Of a DNA stretch of 38,926 nucleotides, positions 2,599-37,946 are shown in pieces. Both the position numbers and the translations under genes were made by a program. Position 1 is the stretch's first letter; each line of letters opens with the position of its first letter. The notes under the pieces were generated by a model. It searched no databases. It was not told the DNA's origin and saw only the letters and a program-made list of their open reading frames with translations. Source of the stretch: a virus; IMG/VR virus record IMGVR_UViG_3300037189_002295, positions 1-38,926 of that record, one strand, 5' to 3'.

Positions 2599-4266
2599 TC
2601 AACGACCAAGTGTCCCAGTTGCCGGATTGTAGTTAAACGCAGGTGGCGCAGGGCTAGTTTGCGGTGCGGTCCCAGGAGTAGTAAACGTAGACCTGATTGC
2701 AGCATCAATCTCTGGTACGGTTGCGGGGCGCCCCAACTGACGACGAATAGTATTTCCCACAGAGGTTCTGAGTTCGGGGTTCCTCAATGCGGCACCGATG
2801 TCGCGTTGATTTTGGGTGTCCAAAGCAGCTTCACCGCGAGCCGTGAAGCCTCGCAGCATGTCAGCGGCCTGTCTCCTCGCTTCACTTGGCTTCATGTCGG
2901 GGTTATCCTTCAGGATGTCCGCGACAGTTTTATCCATATCGGTCAGGCGGTCACGCCCACCAGCCGCAATGCCAGCAGACTGAATATGACCAGCCACTTG
3001 CATCCTTGTTGTCTCTAGGCTTGTTCTAGCCTGAAGTTCAGCATTTAGCCGACTAATGGCGCTATTACGCTGATGCTCAGTCAGCATACCCTGATGGTAC
3101 TGCGCCTCCACATCAGCCTTAGCCAGATCAAACTGGGCCTTCAGTTCATCACGACCCTCCTTGCGGAGATTGGTCATCTGAGTCTGGTAGCCCTGAATGG
3201 CAGGGATGGCACCAGCAAGGTTCTGTGCGAAGTGCGGGGACGTGCCACCAGCAATAGCCAGACCAGCCTGAAGCAGCGCCATGTTGCGTGCATTCTCACG
3301 CTCGGTGGCCGGGTTAACCCGCTCACGCTCCATCCGCTCCATGATGGAGTTCAGATGAGAACGGTCGATAGTGGTGCCGGGAGGAATCGCCGATGCGGGT
3401 GCGGCAGCAGGTGCTGCTGTGGGTGCTGCTGTGGCCGTGGGTGTGGCCGTGGGTGTGGCCGTGAGCGCCTGCCTAACTAGAGCGCCGACACCATTGCCTT
3501 GAGTAGCAGCATTTCCCGTAGCAGTTTGGCGTTGAGGAGGCGGTGCATATGGGGGAGGAGTGGGAAGCACCTCTTCTTGTTCAGGATCAATTCGTTCGCC
3601 CAGTATGCTACCTGTCGCAGGTATTGCTTGAGTTGTGACCTCTTGTGCCGCAGCCGTATTTTTCCCAGGCTCGGACATGCGATACCGCAAAGCCTGTTCT
3701 ATCGCAGACCTAGGTGGCGCTCCAAACGCCCTTGATTGAGTTTGAGGATCAATGGGAATAAACTGTTGCTCAGGAAGATTTTCACGCCGGCCACCCCTAA
3801 GGAAGCGGGAGAACGCATTCTCTGTGGGCGGCTCTGTAACGGTGGGGGTAGGATCAAGAAGGGCGTTAAGTTGTTCTACCGTCATCCCTCGCAAACTAGC
3901 AGATGGCGGTGGGTCGCCGCCCCCGCTCATCCGCACCACACCACCTTCCCGCATACCAGGGACCGGGGAGGCTAGGCTCTGGATACCCACAGAAGGGGCG
4001 CTGGCAGGCTGCTGAGGAGCTTGGGCAGGCATCATACCGGGCGCTGTAGCAACCGACTGTCCGGGCTGCTGAGGACCTTGTGTGAGGTCATCAGCAACGG
4101 TGCTGCTGGGCGGCGACTGGTTCTGCTGACGCATATCTTTGCGGCGCTTCAGTTCACTCAACACAAGGAACTGCGGCACCTGACCTGTTGGGTCTTGCAT
4201 CTCAGACATGAGTTGCTGGTCAGACAGGCTCTTCAGGGAATCTTGAGTTTGAAGGAGATTTGCCAT
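2599..4266 (-). CDS. Phage structural protein, low-complexity middle (555 aa)
   Basis: The start at 4266 is chosen because the upstream gene stops one base before it and AGGAAC sits in the ribosome-binding position; the frame is open farther upstream but that part overlaps the neighbour. Residues about 10-50 (LSDQQL, PQFLVLSELKRRKDMR) form a helical segment seen in virion proteins of many short-tailed phages. Residues about 50-300 are rich in Pro, Gln, Ala and Thr, including an ATPTATPTAT run encoded by a 12-base tandem repeat. The C-terminal half is predicted helical (residues about 320-500), with many Ala, Gln and charged residues. It sits between the presumed ejection protein and a Gln/Asn-rich protein, which suggests an internal or tail-tip virion component. 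No enzyme motif is visible. Confidence 0.75.
   Translation of the reverse strand: MANLLQTQDSLKSLSDQQLMSEMQDPTGQVPQFLVLSELKRRKDMRQQNQSPPSSTVADDLTQGPQQPGQSVATAPGMMPAQAPQQPASAPSVGIQSLASPVPGMREGGVVRMSGGGDPPPSASLRGMTVEQLNALLDPTPTVTEPPTENAFSRFLRGGRRENLPEQQFIPIDPQTQSRAFGAPPRSAIEQALRYRMSEPGKNTAAAQEVTTQAIPATGSILGERIDPEQEEVLPTPPPYAPPPQRQTATGNAATQGNGVGALVRQALTATPTATPTATAAPTAAPAAAPASAIPPGTTIDRSHLNSIMERMERERVNPATERENARNMALLQAGLAIAGGTSPHFAQNLAGAIPAIQGYQTQMTNLRKEGRDELKAQFDLAKADVEAQYHQGMLTEHQRNSAISRLNAELQARTSLETTRMQVAGHIQSAGIAAGGRDRLTDMDKTVADILKDNPDMKPSEARRQAADMLRGFTARGEAALDTQNQRDIGAALRNPELRTSVGNTIRRQLGRPATVPEIDAAIRSTFTTPGTAPQTSPAPPAFNYNPATGTLGR
3431..3463. repeat. 12-base tandem repeat inside a structural gene
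   Basis: Two full copies and one partial copy of GTGGCCGTGGGT follow each other directly. The period is a multiple of three and encodes the repeated Ala-Thr-Pro-Thr linker of the overlapping gene, so copy number can change without breaking the frame. Confidence 0.8.
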
Positions 4267-23698: not shown

Positions 23699-24358
23699 TT
23701 AGGTAACGAAGTTGTCTGAGTAGATCCTGGGACGGCGGTTATTTTCAACTTTAGGCAACGGCCTGAGGTTCCAAGGGACATGTAGACCACTAACCACTCT
23801 GCCTTGCAGGGGGACAATGTGATCGACCTCATAAGGGATGCCAGTCTCCTCTGACAGGCGCCTTGCTTCAGCGTACACAGCCCTGATCTGACGATGATGC
23901 TCTTTTGTTAGCCATAATGGAGTAGCTTTAAGGACAGCAGCACGACGCTTGGCCTTATAGCTGGTCACAAGAGATGGGTTTTTGAGAACAAACTCGCGAT
24001 CCATCTGACGTTTACGCTCAGGGTTCTTCTTTACCCACTCTTTGGTGCGCTTGCGTGCAGCATCTTGAACGTCGGGACGAGAGTGATAGCATTTTAGCTT
24101 TTCACGATAATACTCAGGATTGCTGTCGCGCCACTCTTGAGCTTTGACTTTGTATGTGTCTGAGTTTTGAATGTAGTGAACGTGCGCCCAAACTTTCTTG
24201 GCTGCTGGACAGAAGCCTTCCCCGCAGTTGTTAGAGTCTGGAGAGCGCCGACCAGCCGTTGGATCTCCGTGCCGCTTAAGGCGAAGCCTATGAGCATTGC
24301 ACATGCCATTGCGATATGGCGGCTTTTCACATCCTGGGATGCAGCATATAATGGACAT
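23699..24358 (-). CDS. Free-standing HNH homing endonuclease (219 aa)
   Basis: Starts are possible at 24364 and 24358; AGGTGA is six bases before the second, so MSIICCIPGCEK is chosen. N-terminal cysteines and a histidine (C-IPGC, MCNAH, residues 5-23) form a probable zinc finger, followed by a long basic helical region (RKRTKEWVKKNPERKRQMDR). The C-terminal HNH motif is VDHIVPLQG (D179, H180), then LHVPWNLRPL (N197) and N206. It should nick or cut DNA at a site in related phages lacking the gene. It stands alone between the capsid gene and a virion gene, each side isolated by hairpins, as expected of a recent homing insertion. Confidence 0.85.
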   Translation of the reverse strand: MSIICCIPGCEKPPYRNGMCNAHRLRLKRHGDPTAGRRSPDSNNCGEGFCPAAKKVWAHVHYIQNSDTYKVKAQEWRDSNPEYYREKLKCYHSRPDVQDAARKRTKEWVKKNPERKRQMDREFVLKNPSLVTSYKAKRRAAVLKATPLWLTKEHHRQIRAVYAEARRLSEETGIPYEVDHIVPLQGRVVSGLHVPWNLRPLPKVENNRRPRIYSDNFVT

Positions 24359-24392
24359 AGTCATTCACCTATTGATGTAGGTTGATGATCAG

Positions 24393-26612: not shown

Positions 26613-27543
26613 GACCGTAATCCTTTACATATTGAGCAGCGTACTGTTCTGGCGACAGGCCGAAGCGTTTAGCCAAGCGCACCTGACTAGACGTGAGAAC
26701 CACCCTGTTTGTATTGCGAGAGGTCCGCGTAACGGGTGCCACCACACTACTGACAGGAGCAGGACGATTGGACTGTGGTGTCGGTTCCTTATCCACCACA
26801 GTTGCTTCTGACCTGAAATACTCAGGGAATCGACTGCGAACAGAGCGGTCAATCTCCTTGTAGTACTCGTCAGAGCGAGGATCAATCTTCCGCTTATGGA
26901 TGAGTTTGTCACTCACAGCAAAAGCATAAGCGGTCATATCCTCTTCAAGCTCACCAGGGGAATCGAACCACTGGTTGTCCTTGTACCAATCTTCCGCCTT
27001 AGGATCGACCTTAACGGTCGGCTGCTGCGGAAGCTGGGCAGGTTGCTGAGGAATCTGAGGCGGTACGTAGTTTACGTACTTCTCATGCTCCGAAACCAAG
27101 CGATGGAGTTGCTCCTGGGCTTCCAGGAACTTCTCTGTCTCGCCGGCCTCAAAGGCTTCCTTGGCAGACTTCTTGATGCTGTCGATCTGGACTTCAGTGC
27201 GAACCTTCGCCTGTCCAACGAGAGCCTGTTCACTAGATACGCCAGCCCGCTTGAGGCGATTGTTTTCCTCAAACAATGCCTGGGCCAGACGAACTGCCTC
27301 ATCCTTCTCACGGCCAGCCAGTTCCTTGGCGCGCCGCTCAGAATGAGCCTTATGGGTGAGGTCTTTGATCCTCTTCTGAACACCCTTACTATAGGTGCCA
27401 ACCTCATCATCCGAGATCTGGATGTCGTCGTCGGAGTCAGTCTTCTCGGGCGCTACAGCGCGGCCACGGTCGGCCTCCGGGGTGTCATCAACGATCTCGA
27501 TCTCAATGTCGAGGTCGTCGTTCTTTTCCAGTTTCTCGCTCAT
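26605..27543 (-). CDS. Scaffolding protein (312 aa)
   Basis: Highly charged: an acidic first 50 residues (DDLDIEIEIVDDTPEADRG), then a long coiled-coil-type helix (KRIKDLTHKAHSERRAKELA, EKDEAVRLAQALFEENNRLK), a Pro/Gln linker (PPQIPQQPAQLPQQP) and a C-terminal basic end. This composition and the place between the portal module and capsid gene identify a capsid scaffold. GLSPEQYAAQYVKD near the end likely touches the capsid. ATG overlaps the co-chaperonin stop by four bases. Confidence 0.85.
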   Translation of the reverse strand: MSEKLEKNDDLDIEIEIVDDTPEADRGRAVAPEKTDSDDDIQISDDEVGTYSKGVQKRIKDLTHKAHSERRAKELAGREKDEAVRLAQALFEENNRLKRAGVSSEQALVGQAKVRTEVQIDSIKKSAKEAFEAGETEKFLEAQEQLHRLVSEHEKYVNYVPPQIPQQPAQLPQQPTVKVDPKAEDWYKDNQWFDSPGELEEDMTAYAFAVSDKLIHKRKIDPRSDEYYKEIDRSVRSRFPEYFRSEATVVDKEPTPQSNRPAPVSSVVAPVTRTSRNTNRVVLTSSQVRLAKRFGLSPEQYAAQYVKDYGHG

Positions 27544-27920
27544 GCGCGCTTAATCCCACGGGGATCTTCAACAACAGCCTCTACTGTATCATCATTGATG
27601 ATCCGGAACTCCTTCCCGTGGATCTTGATCCGAGTGCCAGAGTAAGCGCGGAACACAACCCAGTCGCCTTCCTTGCACCAAGGACCATGCGGGAACTTGT
27701 TCAAGTCATTGTACGCCAAAGAACCAAGCTTGAGAACAAAGCCGACAATAGAAGCTGTCTGCTCGCGTTCGCGCGAAGCATCTGGAATATACACACCGCC
27801 GTCTGTCTTGTCTTCAAACTCAGGCATTGTCACCAAGAGCTTGTAGCCGACAGGTTCAGGAAGTTGGCTAGCGGCACGAACTTCTTCAGAAACTTCGGGG
27901 ATCTTAATGTTCAGGTCCAT
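27540..27920 (-). CDS. GroES-like co-chaperonin (126 aa)
   Basis: A Cpn10-like fold can be read: PEPVGYKLLVTMPEFEDKTD, GGVYIPD (mobile-loop and roof region, residues 41-47), REREQTASIVGFVLKLGSLA, then CKEGDWVVFRAYSGTRIKIH and EFRIINDDTVEAVVED. The final strands are the conserved barrel. It would act with the host GroEL to fold capsid proteins, as T4 gp31 does; no GroEL-like gene is in the window. It lies directly ahead of the scaffold gene, which supports a capsid-folding job. The family is clear; target specificity is inferred. Confidence 0.82.
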   Translation of the reverse strand: MDLNIKIPEVSEEVRAASQLPEPVGYKLLVTMPEFEDKTDGGVYIPDASREREQTASIVGFVLKLGSLAYNDLNKFPHGPWCKEGDWVVFRAYSGTRIKIHGKEFRIINDDTVEAVVEDPRGIKRA

Positions 27921-27975: not shown

Positions 27976-28179
27976 TTAGTCCGCTCGCTGGGCACGTTCG
28001 ACCAGATCAAGCAATTCGCGTTCTGCAAAGGCCAAGCCTTCGATAAAGCCTGTGTGGTGCTTGTAGTCGGAGAAGTCAGTACAACCGCCTCCAGCGACAT
28101 GATCAGCACGTTCATTCATCAAATCCCTGATGGCCTTGCGAAGAACAGAGAGGATGCTCTCATCAATGTTGTCTAGCAT
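27976..28179 (-). CDS. Small conserved phage protein (67 aa)
   Basis: ATG at 28179 overlaps the portal stop by one base (TGATG); a GTG one codon earlier is also possible. Helical protein: ESILSVLRKAIRDLMNERAD, then DYKHHTGFIEGLAFAERELL. This small family commonly follows the portal gene. No domain of known function; perhaps an assembly helper. Confidence 0.65.
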   Translation of the reverse strand: MLDNIDESILSVLRKAIRDLMNERADHVAGGGCTDFSDYKHHTGFIEGLAFAERELLDLVERAQRAD

Positions 28180-30623
28180 CACTCAAACCTATTCTTCATC
28201 ATGTCGTTGCCAACCTTGATTCCTTCAAGCCGCATGCGCTGGATAGCTTCCTCATACTTATGATCGGAAGCCTCCTTAGTCGCTGCTGCCTTGATGCCAG
28301 CGGTAACCCCAGCGGTGCGCTCCTGAGCCTTGATGCGCTCTGCATCCAAGGTAAGGCGCCCCAGGTTGAGCATAGCGTCAGCATCGTCCTTCTTGGACTT
28401 ACGCTGTAGGTCAGCCTGCTTAAGCTGAAGCTCCTGCATCTGAGCCTGTATGACAGGGTCTTGCATCTTCTGCATGTTCTGCTTCATCTGCGCCTCAGCC
28501 TGATCCTTCTTAAGCAGCTTGTCTGCGGCGTCAGCGATCAGCTTGGACAGAGCTACCTCAACATCCTCAGGCAGCGCCTCGTCCGGTGGCGGCAACTCAA
28601 CACCAAGCTGCTTCTCAATCTCGCGGCGGTACTGGAAGCCAATATGCTCAGCGATATGGGCCTGTGCAGCCGCCTGAGTGGCTGCCGCCTGCGGAGACTG
28701 GCCAACCATAGCCAGAATCTTCGGGTCCTGCATGGCGGCCATATGGACCTTAATATGGGCCTCATGGTCCTGATACAGGAACGCCTTGATCGGCTTGTTC
28801 GTCAGGATGGCCATGTTCTCCGAGACCGGGTCCATGGGCTTCTTATCCTTAGCGGACGGAACAATCTTCTCAACGTCCTGAATGCCAAGGATGGTCAGCA
28901 TCTGCCGGTGAAGCTCTGGCAAGTCATAGATTTGAGGTGACTGAGCAGCAAGTTGGAGTGCCGCTTGGTATTGAACAACACGCTGGGACAAGGACGCTGC
29001 GTTAGGGTCCGTGACCGGGATTACATCAATCCGCCGATCATAGTCCTCACCGCGCGTGGCACCATCATCTGTCTCGTACTCATACTCATCCGGCAGGCAG
29101 TCTTTGATGATCTCCACCAACAACGCCAGTTCCCGCTTCATGGAGGCGTGGAGACGGGCCTGCACGGCAGACATCACCTTCATCGCCCGCTCCATGAGAG
29201 CGAGCGTGGTGCCTACCGGAGCTTGTTGATTCGCATCACCAATTTGGAGATCAGCGATTGAAGCGAACCGACGGCCTTCTTCCACCATGTTGCCAAGGAG
29301 GCTAGCCAGGACTTGAGACGGCTCTTTGTAAGGAAGGAAGGTAATAGCATCTTTGATAGCTCCAGAAGGAACATCGACATCACGGAACTCGCCGGGCATC
29401 AATGGTGTGCTATCGCCCTTAATCCGAAGCCCACGGGCCTTTAGACCGGCCGGCAGGTTAGACAGGGTGCCAGCATCAATAAGCTGCCGCAGGATACTGG
29501 TGGCGCTCTTAGCAATACCACCAACCAGATGGATAAGGCCGAAGGCGTAGAAGCCAAAACCAGGGATGTAGTCATACTGGACGAAGTGCTGACGCTTGAT
29601 CCGCAGCTTATCCCCCGCCTTCCAGTTCCGGTAGATAGACAGAACCTGACTGGATGTGCGGTCAATGGTGACTACGTAAGGAAGGGCAATGCCTGTCTGC
29701 TCACCTTCAAGGTCCGAATCTTCAAAACCAGGAAGATCAATGTCTGCATGAATCTCCAGCAGGACATGGCGATCATCGTTGCCACTGACATCCTCTCCGG
29801 TCATCTCATCCTTAGTCTTCTGGATGTCAGAGATTTCCGGCGAAGGCGTAGGCAGATCAACATCTGCATAGAAACCAATAGCCTGTAGCTTCTTCACATC
29901 ATTGGGATACTTCCGCATGATGTGGGTATAGCGGGGGCAGGACAGCAGATCAGACGCCCCGTAGGGCACCACAAAGTCCTCAGCCGGCACGTACATGGAC
30001 GTAGGACGGCCCGCGTTGGGGTCGAAGTACACCTTCTTGAAAGCGGCGCCAGCCAGGGGGAGAGCAAACAACATACGCTCATGTTCAGAACGGAACTCAA
30101 CCATCCGCTCAGTCAGCATGTAGTTCAGGTCATTCTTGACCCGGATAGCCTGCTTTTCCCGCTGCGGGGTTACTTTGCCAATGATCTTCGTCTTAACCGG
30201 GCCGGCGGCCGGAAAAGTTTCCATGATAGCCTGCGACTGGAACCGAACGGCGGCTTCAGACAGGATGGGATGGAACACACCACAAGCCCCAGGCCAGGGC
30301 GTACTGCGGTCTTCGATCTTCAGACCCAGGAGATCCAGGCCCTTGCGATAAGTATCCGACCAATCCCGTCGGCTATTCAGATCGGACTGGAACTCCTGAA
30401 GGAGTTGGCTGCTAAGGGACATCACATCCCGGTCTTCCATGAACTCGACCAAGTTAGCCCCGAATGTGGGGTCAACCTGCTCGGCCTTCTCATGGCCCAA
30501 GATGACAATGGCGCCGCCGTCCGGAGTGCCAATACTTACGGACTCAGGGTTCTCAATGGCGATCTCAAGAGAAGGCTCGGGTGCCGGGATGAAGTTGGGG
30601 TCCAGAGCTTTATCAACGGCCAC
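28179..30623 (-). CDS. Portal protein, P22-like family (814 aa)
   Basis: Start GTG 30623 is supported by AAGGA seven bases upstream. Family motifs are FMEDRDVMSLSSQLLQEFQS, RRDWSDTYRKGLDLLGLKIE, STPWPGACGVFHPILSEAAV, PAAGPVKTKIIGKVTPQREK, ALPLAGAAFKKVYFDPN, PRYTHIMRKYPNDV and FGFYAFGLIHLVGGIAKSAT. The C-terminal 200 residues are a long Ala/Gln/Lys-rich helix (DQAEAQMKQNMQKMQDPVIQ) that could form the barrel of a P22-like portal. Twelve copies would make the vertex through which the terminase packs DNA. Adjacent to terL, as usual. Confidence 0.93.
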   Translation of the reverse strand: MAVDKALDPNFIPAPEPSLEIAIENPESVSIGTPDGGAIVILGHEKAEQVDPTFGANLVEFMEDRDVMSLSSQLLQEFQSDLNSRRDWSDTYRKGLDLLGLKIEDRSTPWPGACGVFHPILSEAAVRFQSQAIMETFPAAGPVKTKIIGKVTPQREKQAIRVKNDLNYMLTERMVEFRSEHERMLFALPLAGAAFKKVYFDPNAGRPTSMYVPAEDFVVPYGASDLLSCPRYTHIMRKYPNDVKKLQAIGFYADVDLPTPSPEISDIQKTKDEMTGEDVSGNDDRHVLLEIHADIDLPGFEDSDLEGEQTGIALPYVVTIDRTSSQVLSIYRNWKAGDKLRIKRQHFVQYDYIPGFGFYAFGLIHLVGGIAKSATSILRQLIDAGTLSNLPAGLKARGLRIKGDSTPLMPGEFRDVDVPSGAIKDAITFLPYKEPSQVLASLLGNMVEEGRRFASIADLQIGDANQQAPVGTTLALMERAMKVMSAVQARLHASMKRELALLVEIIKDCLPDEYEYETDDGATRGEDYDRRIDVIPVTDPNAASLSQRVVQYQAALQLAAQSPQIYDLPELHRQMLTILGIQDVEKIVPSAKDKKPMDPVSENMAILTNKPIKAFLYQDHEAHIKVHMAAMQDPKILAMVGQSPQAAATQAAAQAHIAEHIGFQYRREIEKQLGVELPPPDEALPEDVEVALSKLIADAADKLLKKDQAEAQMKQNMQKMQDPVIQAQMQELQLKQADLQRKSKKDDADAMLNLGRLTLDAERIKAQERTAGVTAGIKAAATKEASDHKYEEAIQRMRLEGIKVGNDMMKNRFE

Positions 30624-30634
30624 TGTTCATTCCT

Positions 30635-33169
30635 TCAGTAATAAGCAGCATGGCGCCGAGGAAGTTCTTCTTCCTCATAGTCACTGGGGAGGCGGATCAA
30701 GCCACCCTGCCTGTACCGCATCAATGCCATAACAACACTATCGACAAGGTCATCATTAGCGCCATTAGGGAATGCAGCGCAATCCTCAATGACTTCGTCT
30801 GCCCATTTACGCTCTGGTGCCCAGACCATACCAGAGGAAATGATGTCTGCAACACTATTTGCTCGAACGATCTTATCATTAGGCGCCATCTTGGTGCCGC
30901 GCGTTGGGGTGAAGTCAGACACCGGCACCCCCATTGAGCGAAGCTCATGGATCAGCGGCAGGCCAGAAGCCTTAGCCTCAATAAGCAGCGTGTCTGGCTG
31001 CCACTCCCTGTACATCTCCAAGGTCTTAGCCTTGAGTGCCGGGAACTCCAGGCGCTCCTTGAAGGCATCCAGGAGGATCAGACTGGGTCTGAAGTTACCC
31101 ATCTCATCCTCACACTGGAACACTCCCCACACAGTGAAAGCTGAATAGTCTGAGCGATTGTTCTTGGTGTAAGCGGTATCCGCCGAGATCATCACGTACT
31201 CAACATCAGGCGCATACGGCTTAGTCCATCGTTTCCACCAGTCCCGCTTAAGAATGGCACCTTCTTCATTGGTTGGCTGCTGCTGATACTGAGCATTCCA
31301 CTTGGAAGCGGGTAGCTCAGACTTCAGCGCATCCAGAGCCTCCTTAGACCAGTAGCCGGGCCACAGGGGGTTGCCAGAGGGCATGATGGCAGGAAGCTCA
31401 ATCACCTCCCACTCAGAGGTGCCGTCGCGTTCCGTTGAAGACTGGATTAAACGTCCGGTAAGATCCCGCTTACCCCATCGAGTCATTACAATTACGATTG
31501 CAGCTCCAGGCTGCAAACGCTGCCGAGGGCCAGATGTGTACCACTCAAATGCCTTGTCATAGACAGACGCATCATGGGCGGCGAGGATTGCTTCCTGCTC
31601 GGTGTGCGGATCATCAATGATGAATAGATCGGCACCCTTACCGGCAATAGCGCCACCAACGCCAACAGCAAAGTACTCGCCGCCCCGACTAGTGGCCCAC
31701 CGGCCAGCAGCCTTGCTATCTGACTGAAGACCTATGTTCCTAAAGATCTTCTGATAGGACTCCGTGTCGATCAGGTTCCTGACCTTACGACCAAAGTTAA
31801 CAGCCAACTCGGCGGTGTGAGTAGACTGAATGATCTTCTTCTCGGGAAAGTTACCCATAAACCATGCTGGAAGCAAGTAAGACGCAAACTCGCTTTTGGT
31901 GTTCAGTGTAGCAACCATCCCGTGACCAGCAAGGAAAGCCTCATCCTCGCGGGCGACCTTGATGCAAACCGTATCACCACTCCGGTCTAGCTTGGTAACT
32001 CGAATGAAACGCCCAACCACAGGGGCTTTAGTGCGATCTCGCTTCCTAGCAAGAAAGCAACAATCCTTCATATAGAAGGAAACCCTATGATGAATACCGT
32101 AAGAACGATCTCCAATCTTTGCTTCAGAAGATTGGATGGAGTTCTTAACTCCCAGGCTCCACAAGAGCTTTCTAAAATCATTGATCATATCAATGTTCTT
32201 CTGGGCAAAGAAGCATTGACCAGCTTTGGTAACGCACCCATCAGTGTCCATAAGGCCACGAACAAGGTCAACGCGATCCTGTATCGTTCCAAGAAGATAA
32301 GCCTCTGGGATGTGCTTGCCGTTAAGAACCCCTAGGTCTCGCAGCTTTACCTTCAGATCCAGTATCCCAAAGCTCATGCGGGTAGACTGGTCGGTGGTCT
32401 TGTACCCCCGTCGCTCAATTTCAGCCCGAATGATGGCCGCATCATCATCCTTCATGGTGATGATGGCCTGAGCGGAGGTGCCGTCACCAAGCCAAACCCC
32501 AAGAACATAAGGATCTATGAGAAGCTCAGTGCCAGGAAGATCGACGGCACTGAACTCCGGAAGCATGGCAGCCCGCACCTGATTACAGTCTTTCTCACAA
32601 GACATCAAAACACGCCCATTACGGAGCGTCTTTAAGAGAGCGCCCTGATCTCGGCACCAAAGCTGCTCAGTGGTGTAGATATGGAACTTGTTGAACTTCC
32701 GACTCAATCTGACGCGCCAGCGATGATCACCATCACAAACAACTTCAGCGCCGTCGTCAGTAGTGACCTTGTAAAGTTGCCGGTCCTTGTGAACCTCAGA
32801 CTTACCAACAACCTCTGTTGGCACACCATCAGGTCCAAACACCTGATCTCCAACTTTGATCTCACCAATCGTTGTCCAGCCAGATGGGGTGAGAAGCGGA
32901 GTTTCCACAGCAAGCGGGTGTCTTGGTGCCATGTTGATGATGAGCCTCTTGCATTCTCCGCTCAACACTCGCTCAAACGCTTCAGCCATAATCTGATGGT
33001 GCCGACCTTCAATAAAGCCCGGCCACATCTGCTTAACGAATGGAATGAAGCCCGTCTTAGCTGTCTCTCGGGCCTTGGCCTGCTCCAAGTCATCAATGAT
33101 CTTGAGCAACTCTTTCTGCTCATTGATCGGCATAGACTTGATCTTAGGAAGGATGGCCTTGAGGTCCAT
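30635..33169 (-). CDS. terL: Terminase large subunit interrupted by an intein (844 aa precursor, ~505 aa mature)
   Basis: The mature protein would be residues 1-84 plus 424-844. The ATP-binding motif is split: NMAPRH (79-84), then TKSEFASYLLPAWFMG (424-439). FIIDDPH (516-522) is the Walker B region. The nuclease domain has D664 (MISADTAYTKNN), D674 in RSDYSAFTVWG, E731 in TLLIEAKASGLPL and D806/D807 in ANDDLVDSVVMAL. The protein should translocate DNA into the prohead and cut the concatemer, and can work only once the intein is spliced out. The ATG at 33169 has only a weak GGAA and follows a strong terminator directly. The portal gene follows 11 bases later. Confidence 0.95.
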   Translation of the reverse strand: MDLKAILPKIKSMPINEQKELLKIIDDLEQAKARETAKTGFIPFVKQMWPGFIEGRHHQIMAEAFERVLSGECKRLIINMAPRHPLAVETPLLTPSGWTTIGEIKVGDQVFGPDGVPTEVVGKSEVHKDRQLYKVTTDDGAEVVCDGDHRWRVRLSRKFNKFHIYTTEQLWCRDQGALLKTLRNGRVLMSCEKDCNQVRAAMLPEFSAVDLPGTELLIDPYVLGVWLGDGTSAQAIITMKDDDAAIIRAEIERRGYKTTDQSTRMSFGILDLKVKLRDLGVLNGKHIPEAYLLGTIQDRVDLVRGLMDTDGCVTKAGQCFFAQKNIDMINDFRKLLWSLGVKNSIQSSEAKIGDRSYGIHHRVSFYMKDCCFLARKRDRTKAPVVGRFIRVTKLDRSGDTVCIKVAREDEAFLAGHGMVATLNTKSEFASYLLPAWFMGNFPEKKIIQSTHTAELAVNFGRKVRNLIDTESYQKIFRNIGLQSDSKAAGRWATSRGGEYFAVGVGGAIAGKGADLFIIDDPHTEQEAILAAHDASVYDKAFEWYTSGPRQRLQPGAAIVIVMTRWGKRDLTGRLIQSSTERDGTSEWEVIELPAIMPSGNPLWPGYWSKEALDALKSELPASKWNAQYQQQPTNEEGAILKRDWWKRWTKPYAPDVEYVMISADTAYTKNNRSDYSAFTVWGVFQCEDEMGNFRPSLILLDAFKERLEFPALKAKTLEMYREWQPDTLLIEAKASGLPLIHELRSMGVPVSDFTPTRGTKMAPNDKIVRANSVADIISSGMVWAPERKWADEVIEDCAAFPNGANDDLVDSVVMALMRYRQGGLIRLPSDYEEEELPRRHAAYY
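31901..32917 (-). other. Intein with LAGLIDADG homing endonuclease, class 3 features (339 aa)
   Basis: The boundary is set by N-extein ...APRH and C-extein TKSEF, which restore the terminase P-loop. The intein opens PLAVETPLLTPSGWTTIGEI (block A-like) with Pro at position 1 in place of Cys/Ser. Block B is GAEVVCDGDHRWRV with H65 and W67. A LAGLIDADG endonuclease occupies the middle: YVLGVWLGDG (about 137-146) and LVRGLMDTDG (218-227). Block F is DTVCIKV with C318; block G is GHGMVATLN with T337 and final N339, and Thr as the +1 residue. W67, C318 and T337 fit the Trp-Cys-Thr set of class 3 inteins, where the block F Cys replaces the missing first-residue nucleophile. The penultimate residue is Leu rather than His. 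Confidence 0.87.
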
Positions 33170-34975: not shown

Positions 34976-35605
34976 TTACGCTGATTTGAGTAAGGCTCGC
35001 AGACGTTCTTCAAGTTGGGCTTCGAGATCGTCGACAGTAACGTCGACCGTCTCTGTAGTAATGCGCTCTCGGAAGGCAGCAACGTCGGTCAGCTTGCCCA
35101 GTAGTTCGAGCGCTCTTACTCTAACACTTGCCGGGTTTGCTTTGTCGGAAGCTTCTATTTGTAGGCGTTCTATGACTGTTGCTTTGATTCTTGCGGCATC
35201 ATGCGTTGTTTTCCTACTCTTAGCCTCCACCAGAGTATTCACCCTCGCAGCAACATTGTCGCCCGCCATCAACCTAGATGCATGGGAGACTATTGTCTCG
35301 GCCATCATGTTACCGGCGTTGTATGCAGCCTTATAGCTGGCTGTTAGCGTCTTTCCGGCTGCTACACCCTGAGCGAAAAGCTCCTGCTTTGCCGTCAAAC
35401 CCCATTCGTTTTTACCCTGTCCATGCAATGCACCGCGCCCAGGCTGTCGTTGCGGTATCGTAGCCATATCCAGGCCTGCGACAACGCGTAGAGCTGCGGC
35501 CACGGGCTGGCCATCTATTGCGGGTCTGAGCCGTTTATTACGACTCCCCTTAGGCCGGCCAGCTCGGCGCCTACCTGTCGTGGTGATATCGTCACTGTGT
35601 GCCAT
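34976..35605 (-). CDS. terS: Terminase small subunit with AT-hook-like N-terminus (209 aa)
   Basis: The frame extends to a TTG at 35662, but ATG 35605 (MAHSDDITTTGRRRAGRPKG) is preferred. GRPKGSRNKR (about 15-25) resembles an AT-hook that binds the minor groove. From about 66 comes a terminase-small-type region: LTAKQELFAQGVAAGKTLTA, SYKAAYNAGNMMAETIVSHA, SRLMAGDNVAARVNTLVEAK, then a helical end (IKATVIERLQIEASDKANPA, VRALELLGKLTDVAAF) and a C-terminal acidic/helical segment (VDDLEAQLEERLRALLK) for ring formation. It should recognise the packaging site and present it to TerL. It is separated from terL by five small features and the repeat-bearing gap. Confidence 0.82.
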   Translation of the reverse strand: MAHSDDITTTGRRRAGRPKGSRNKRLRPAIDGQPVAAALRVVAGLDMATIPQRQPGRGALHGQGKNEWGLTAKQELFAQGVAAGKTLTASYKAAYNAGNMMAETIVSHASRLMAGDNVAARVNTLVEAKSRKTTHDAARIKATVIERLQIEASDKANPASVRVRALELLGKLTDVAAFRERITTETVDVTVDDLEAQLEERLRALLKSA

Positions 35606-35744
35606 CGCGTTTAGTCCGGGCTGGCGCCGGTTGCGGCCGGCGGGTTGCTGACAATCAATCAATGAATACCGCGCATGCGCGTACCTTAGCTTATGTCATC
35701 CAGCCGATCCTTGCCAGCCCCATGGCTCCTAAGCCTTTGTTTTC

Positions 35745-37397: not shown

Positions 37398-37946
37398 ATG
37401 AAGGTGCTAATCGCCTGCGAGTATTCCGGACGTGTACGCAATGCGTTCCGGTTACGTGGCCATGATGCATGGTCCTGCGACCTGCTACCCGCCGAGGATG
37501 GCAGCCCGCATCACGTACAGGGCGACGTGGTCGGCATGCTGGGGAGCGGGTGGGATTTGATGATAGCCCACCCACCTTGCACATATCTGGCGGTTTCGGG
37601 CGCGAGATGGTGGGGTGCCAGGCAACAGGAACAAGCCGCCGCGCTAGACTTCGTGCGCCTGCTGATGGCCGCACCGATACCCCGCATCGCAATAGAAAAC
37701 CCAATATCGTGCATCAGTACAGCCATACGTAAGCCGGAACAAATCATACAGCCGTGGATGTATGGTCACGGTGAGACCAAGGCAACACGCCTGTGGCTGC
37801 ACAACCTGCCGAAATTGCAGCCGACCAATGTAGTGACCGGGCGCGAAGCTAAGGTGCATCGCATGTCGCCCGGACCCAACCGCTGGCGTGAGAGAAGCAG
37901 GACATACGAGGGTATCGCGGCGGCAATGGCCGCACAGTGGGGATAA
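37398..37946 (+). CDS. Cytosine-methyltransferase-like phage protein (182 aa)
   Basis: AATAGGAGCGAG is a good ribosome-binding site. MKVLIACEYSGRVRNAF resembles the cofactor-binding first strand of C5 methyltransferases; SCDLLPAEDG corresponds to the second strand; WDLMIAHPPCTYLAVSG carries a PPC catalytic-type loop (C61) and IAIENP (E100, N101, P102) an ENV-like motif. The end, SRTYEGIAAAMAAQWG, recalls the last helix. At 182 residues it lacks the target-recognition region of normal enzymes, so specificity or even activity is uncertain. Such compact proteins are frequent in phages and may protect the genome or modify nucleotides. Confidence 0.78.
   Translation: MKVLIACEYSGRVRNAFRLRGHDAWSCDLLPAEDGSPHHVQGDVVGMLGSGWDLMIAHPPCTYLAVSGARWWGARQQEQAAALDFVRLLMAAPIPRIAIENPISCISTAIRKPEQIIQPWMYGHGETKATRLWLHNLPKLQPTNVVTGREAKVHRMSPGPNRWRERSRTYEGIAAAMAAQWG

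Follow-up and report, generated by a model that had tools for sequence, protein, structure and literature searches.

Class 3 inteins are defined by the lack of a nucleophile at position 1 together with Trp at B:12, Cys at F:4 and Thr at G:5, the WCT triplet (PMC3196547, PMC5050341, PMC7891396). By 2020, 1701 of them were known, 82.5% with LAGLIDADG motifs (PMC7891396). Class 3 inteins in the phage large terminase subunit (TerL) and TerL inteins located in the P-loop have already been described; five spliced fast, and endonuclease activity was reported for two (PMC5050341). Several mycobacteriophage class 3 TerL inteins splice, and at the site of one of them, TerL1-c, which has LAGLIDADG blocks, the empty allele is cut (PMC5050341). 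The split class 3 intein AceL NrdHF, from another host gene, also splices well (PMC7891396). Here, we describe a class 3 intein that interrupts a phage TerL at a different point of the P-loop and ends in Leu-Asn in place of the usual His-Asn.

Insertion site and splicing residues

The window analyzed here is the whole of IMG/VR virus record IMGVR_UViG_3300037189_002295, 38,926 nucleotides in length. On its minus strand, one open frame runs from an ATG at 33169 to a stop at 30635 (30635-33169; 844 residues plus the stop) and matches TerL profiles (phrog_38, E 3e-95; TIGR01630, E 6.8e-13; Terminase_6C, E 4.5e-10). As judged from its sequence, this ORF is a phage large terminase with a nuclease domain, and it lies close to the portal gene (28179-30623) and the small terminase gene, TerS (34976-35662). 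A second TerL match was not seen in the record, which may be a fragment. Elsewhere in the window, a phage-encoded GroES/Cpn10-like co-chaperonin gene (27540-27920, minus strand; PF00166, E 1.5e-12) sits between the portal and head genes, and an opposite-strand ORF (37398-37946, plus strand) matches phrog_757, annotated as a DNA methyltransferase (E 1.6e-66).

The TerL frame consists of three parts, all on the minus strand. The N-extein (32918-33169; 84 residues) ends in RLIINMAPRH, with which the Walker A loop opens; the intein (31901-32917; 339 residues, ORF residues 85-423) runs from PLAVETP to GMVATLN; and the C-extein (30638-31900; 421 residues) begins with TKSEFASYLL, completes Walker A and carries the nuclease domain. 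The plus-strand translation of 31901-32917 is interrupted by stops. From IMG/VR and GenBank phages we checked 83 intein-less TerL relatives, and in the approximately 80 with a readable junction the two exteins are, in nearly all cases, joined directly, as an unbroken IINMPPRHTKSEFASYLL or a close variant of the PPRHTKSEF type. Because these relatives run through PPRH-TKSEF without interruption, both boundaries of the intein are fixed (P1 to N339, with His at -1 and Thr at +1), and the DNA junctions match the protein junctions codon by codon. The Walker A loop is thus split at PPRH-TKS; the GK|S/T site, which is common among the other TerL inteins compared, lies two residues further downstream. 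The initial annotation had placed a 339-residue insert between APRH and TKSEF, in the P-loop, at 31901-32917; the intein-less relatives confirm the insert and its location, the coordinates are exact, and the strand, which it did not state, is the minus strand.

The residues that it had named (P1, H65-x-W67, C318, T337-L338-N339 and two LAGLIDADG motifs) are all present. Block A, PLAVETPLLTPSG (32879-32917), and block B, GAEVVCDGDHRWRV (32711-32752), were placed by alignment; the former starts with Pro at position 1, which is not a nucleophile, and the latter holds D62 (B:7), H65 (B:10), R66 (B:11) and W67 (B:12). Block F, DTVCIKVAREDEAFLA (31928-31975), carries C318 at F:4 (31964-31966) and lacks the block F His, and block G, GMVATLN plus Thr+1 (31898-31921), provides T337 (G:5), L338 (G:6, normally His) and N339 (G:7); all four blocks are on the minus strand. 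The insert therefore has the Trp, Cys and Thr of class 3 at B:12, F:4 and G:5, as well as His at B:10, Asn at G:7 and, at +1, Thr out of the permitted Cys, Ser or Thr. The WCT residues, H65, N339 and Thr+1 are conserved across relatives: in our 34-row alignment, Trp is found at B:12 in 34/34 rows, His at B:10 in 33/34 and Cys at F:4 in 31/34, so that 30 of the other 33 rows align a Cys with C318. C318 also lines up with the catalytic Cys of 6bs8 and 6rix in both sequence and profile alignments. The single sequence matched the structurally solved class 3 DnaB intein of M. smegmatis (phmmer, E 6.6e-19), and the family profile matched M. chimaera DnaB1 (E 3e-38).

Matches of the insert to generic intein and Hint models are weak (E 0.047 for TIGR01445, E 0.0015 for Hom_end_hint), as would suit an intein of class 1 or 2 or a non-intein Hint domain. 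This reading was rejected, being contradicted by the alignment, and we regard it as extremely unlikely: position 1 is neither Cys nor Ser, the WCT triplet is complete, class 3 inteins give the strongest matches in sequence, and empty alleles reveal an exact in-frame insert flanked by N339 and Thr+1. The class 3 assignment agrees with the predicted fold. Our AlphaFold2 model of the intein without exteins, built on the 34-row alignment, reached pLDDT 94.1 and pTM 0.90 and supersedes an earlier run on a 5-row alignment (pLDDT 61). Its best fold matches are PI-SceI over the whole length (E 9e-22) and the class 3 MsmDnaB intein 6bs8 (TM 0.84 by target length); its HINT part is the region that class 3 DnaB inteins match. 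The initial annotation had called the insert class 3 and proposed a profile alignment against class 3 inteins as a check; that alignment, which puts C318 on the catalytic block F Cys, upholds the assignment together with the WCT residues, the class 3 matches and the fold. We conclude, with a probability of about 0.9, that the insert is a class 3 homing intein competent for splicing.

The annotation had also described Pro at position 1 as unusual, and here the comparison gave a different result. In a set of 59 class 3 relatives that includes the window, 23 start with Ala and 11 with Pro, with boundaries based on alignment except at the PRH|[ST]KS and Naira sites, where empty alleles are available. 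The TerL intein of mycobacteriophage Naira likewise begins with Pro, and its boundary is set by intein-less alleles in related phages. By these counts, Pro1 is ordinary among class 3 inteins.

We infer the splicing chemistry, the role of R66 and the activity of the endonuclease as follows. After translation, C318 would attack the His(-1)-Pro1 bond, aided by the H65/T337 pair and with W67 packing the core. The N-extein would be held as a block F thioester and then passed to Thr+1. Since the penultimate His and the block F His are both missing, cyclization of N339 may depend on R66 (B:11), to which we give a little under an even chance. Cyclization would release the intein, and the O-N shift would leave PRH-TKS joined as a working P-loop. 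At the DNA level, the endonuclease would cut intein-less TerL alleles, whose repair would copy the intein in.

Endonuclease domain, selection and distribution

The homing-endonuclease region spans intein residues 73-300 (32018-32701, minus strand), matches LAGLIDADG_3 (E 1e-6) and gives fold matches to PI-SceI and I-DmoI. As the initial annotation had read from the motifs, a LAGLIDADG domain is present, and both motifs keep their acidic residues: YVLGVWLGDG (intein residues 137-146; 32480-32509, minus strand) has the catalytic-type D145, with Asp in 27/34 rows, and LVRGLMDTDG (residues 218-227; 32237-32266, minus strand) has the catalytic-type D226, with Asp in 29/34. Separately, a free-standing endonuclease VII/HNH-like ORF (23699-24364, minus strand; phrog_1035, E 2e-10) lies in the structural block beside the major head protein gene, and it is possibly another mobile endonuclease.

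We compared the window with a same-site counterpart, IMG/VR contig L001, by the raw-proportion ratio pN/pS, because dS is saturated across the intein as a whole; the values are 0.13 for the N-terminal splicing part, 0.08 for the C-terminal splicing part, 0.20 for the endonuclease and 0.20 for the C-extein. The final 25 residues of the intein are identical in protein sequence between the two. All parts, endonuclease included, thus appear to be under purifying selection.

The distribution of the intein is sporadic. When the C-exteins of 83 TerL proteins are arranged in a tree, the window and L001 belong to a supported seven-member clade in which intein-less lineages separate them; the intein-less L032 shares its metagenome of origin with L001. 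By extein, L156 (59% identity to the window) is nearer than L154 (55%), whereas by intein L154 (58%) is nearer than L156 (41%). Because the two orders of similarity disagree, gain and loss by homing fits better than purely vertical descent; the direction of transfer is not given by them. With the intein alone as query, tblastn matched 724 GenBank phage records, many of them annotated as TerL, and a scan of genome contigs with the intein found no relatives.

The penultimate Leu and the Arg at B:11

The initial annotation had singled out Leu in the place of the penultimate His as unusual, and it is indeed rare. Of the 59 class 3 relatives, 52 end in THN, and the only two that end in TLN are the window and L001, both of the same-site subfamily. 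In the 34-row alignment, 25 rows can be read at G:6 and 23 of them have His, the exceptions being L338 of these two; in the wider set G:6 is His in 54/59, and one of the other five, L171, has a misread end. The Leu338 codon differs between the window and L001 (CTG/TTG), which argues against both an error and a recent copy. The penultimate His is usual for class 3 but not defining, as AceL NrdHF is without it too, and splicing in its absence is known from AceL NrdHF (PMC7891396) and from a mycobacteriophage class 1 intein (PMC5050341).

Five same-site inteins were found (the window, L001, L154, L156 and L158), which form one clade (SH-aLRT 98) whose nearest outgroup, L155, comes from the GK|S site. 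L154, L156 and L158 keep His at G:6, with Ile or Leu at B:11 and Ala or Arg at position 1; the combination of Leu at G:6 with Arg at B:11 (TLN, HRW) is confined to the window and L001. By parsimony, the change from His to Leu at G:6 and the gain of Arg at B:11 would fall on one branch. L154 (match 3001-4020) is a same-site class 3 intein with Ala1 and with Ser rather than Thr at +1 (SKSEF), so the extein nucleophile varies inside a clade that occupies one insertion site.

What the arginine could do is suggested by AceL NrdHF, which lacks both C-terminal His residues: its Arg69 (B:11) lies 2.5 Å from the C-scissile carbonyl, mutation of Arg69 slows splicing, and putting His back kills activity (PMC7891396). 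Because Arg69 at B:11 partly compensates there, we consider R66 a reasoned candidate for the role of the lost penultimate His, a proposal that falls just short of being probable. Counter to it, Arg occurs at B:11 with His kept in four relatives, and the near-identical L167 and L169 have Ser at G:6 without Arg at B:11. Given these exceptions, the proposed role rests on one evolutionary event and on precedent. L167 and L169 are themselves class 3 inteins at the GK|T site ending in TSN, another loss of the penultimate His. More tentatively, we suggest that a clade at one site, with and without the penultimate His, records a change of catalytic group for Asn cyclization that arose naturally and can be traced, in which His gave way to Leu as Arg was gained at B:11, with the His-bearing siblings as a built-in comparison.

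Without the penultimate His, the C-terminal step could become slower or be uncoupled. In the extreme case, the insert would be a decayed class 3 intein that splices poorly or only cleaves, comparable to the Arthrobacter pseudo-intein Arth_1007; inactivity of a class 3 intein has precedent (PMC3196547), and the residue has gone here while same-site siblings keep it, with the block F His missing as well. We judge decay very improbable, since the insert sits in an essential protein and this record, possibly a fragment, showed no other TerL match. The ORF is also intact, with the splicing parts the most constrained (pN/pS 0.08-0.13), Leu338 is retained through different codons in two diverged phages, and every essential class 3 residue is in place, including H(B:10) and C(F:4), both of which Arth_1007 lacks.

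A regulatory intein has also been considered, the initial annotation having suggested that splicing could time packaging: loss of the His would slow splicing and so delay assembly of the packaging motor until late infection or a signal. The location in the P-loop and the noncanonical penultimate residue are compatible with this, the class 3 DnaBi1 intein splices conditionally under oxidation (PMC6195587), and it is a fair inference that the P-loop of an unspliced precursor cannot work. Still, many close relatives carry the gene without the intein, the five TerL inteins tested elsewhere spliced quickly and mostly to ligated product (PMC5050341), and in the phage class 1 intein RDF it is the addition of a penultimate His that makes precursor accumulate, the form without His being faster (PMC5050341). 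We found no support for the timing claim and consider regulation quite unlikely. A class 3 homing element fits both the sporadic distribution and the conserved endonuclease, and a regulatory role is not needed to explain the intein.

Comparison with known inteins

The PI-SceI intein (Sce VMA) shares with the window intein its architecture of HINT plus LAGLIDADG endonuclease; it is longer, lies in a eukaryotic host gene and is a class 1 intein with Cys1. The best sequence relatives with known structure are M. smegmatis DnaBi1 and M. chimaera DnaB1 (6bs8, 6rix, 6riy), which have the same WCT triplet, DxxH block B and HINT fold; DnaBi1 is likewise inserted in a P-loop. They differ in being mini-inteins without an endonuclease, in retaining the penultimate His and in having DnaB as host. 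AceL NrdHF (PMC7891396) resembles the window intein in lacking the block F and penultimate His and in having Arg at B:11, but it is split, has no LAGLIDADG domain, carries Met at B:12, Gly at G:6 and Ala1, and resides in another host gene.

The mycobacteriophage inteins TerL1-c, -d and -e (Kelley et al. 2016, PMC5050341) are, like the window intein, class 3 inteins in the TerL ATPase domain. The window intein differs from them in its site, PRH|TKS, in its identity to them of about 30% and in its Leu for the penultimate His; PRH|TKS is an extra allele that does not match the P-loop sites of that survey (PMC5050341). It thus joins the known class 3 TerL inteins as a member whose insertion site is less common and whose penultimate residue, Leu, is rare. 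The PPRH|[ST]KSEF site is shared with L001, L154, L156 and L158, all IMG/VR contigs, and the main value of the locus lies in this group: its members occupy one insertion site, belong to one clade and differ in whether they have the penultimate His, which makes them a comparison set in which the replacement of that residue can be tested, with Arg at B:11 as the candidate.
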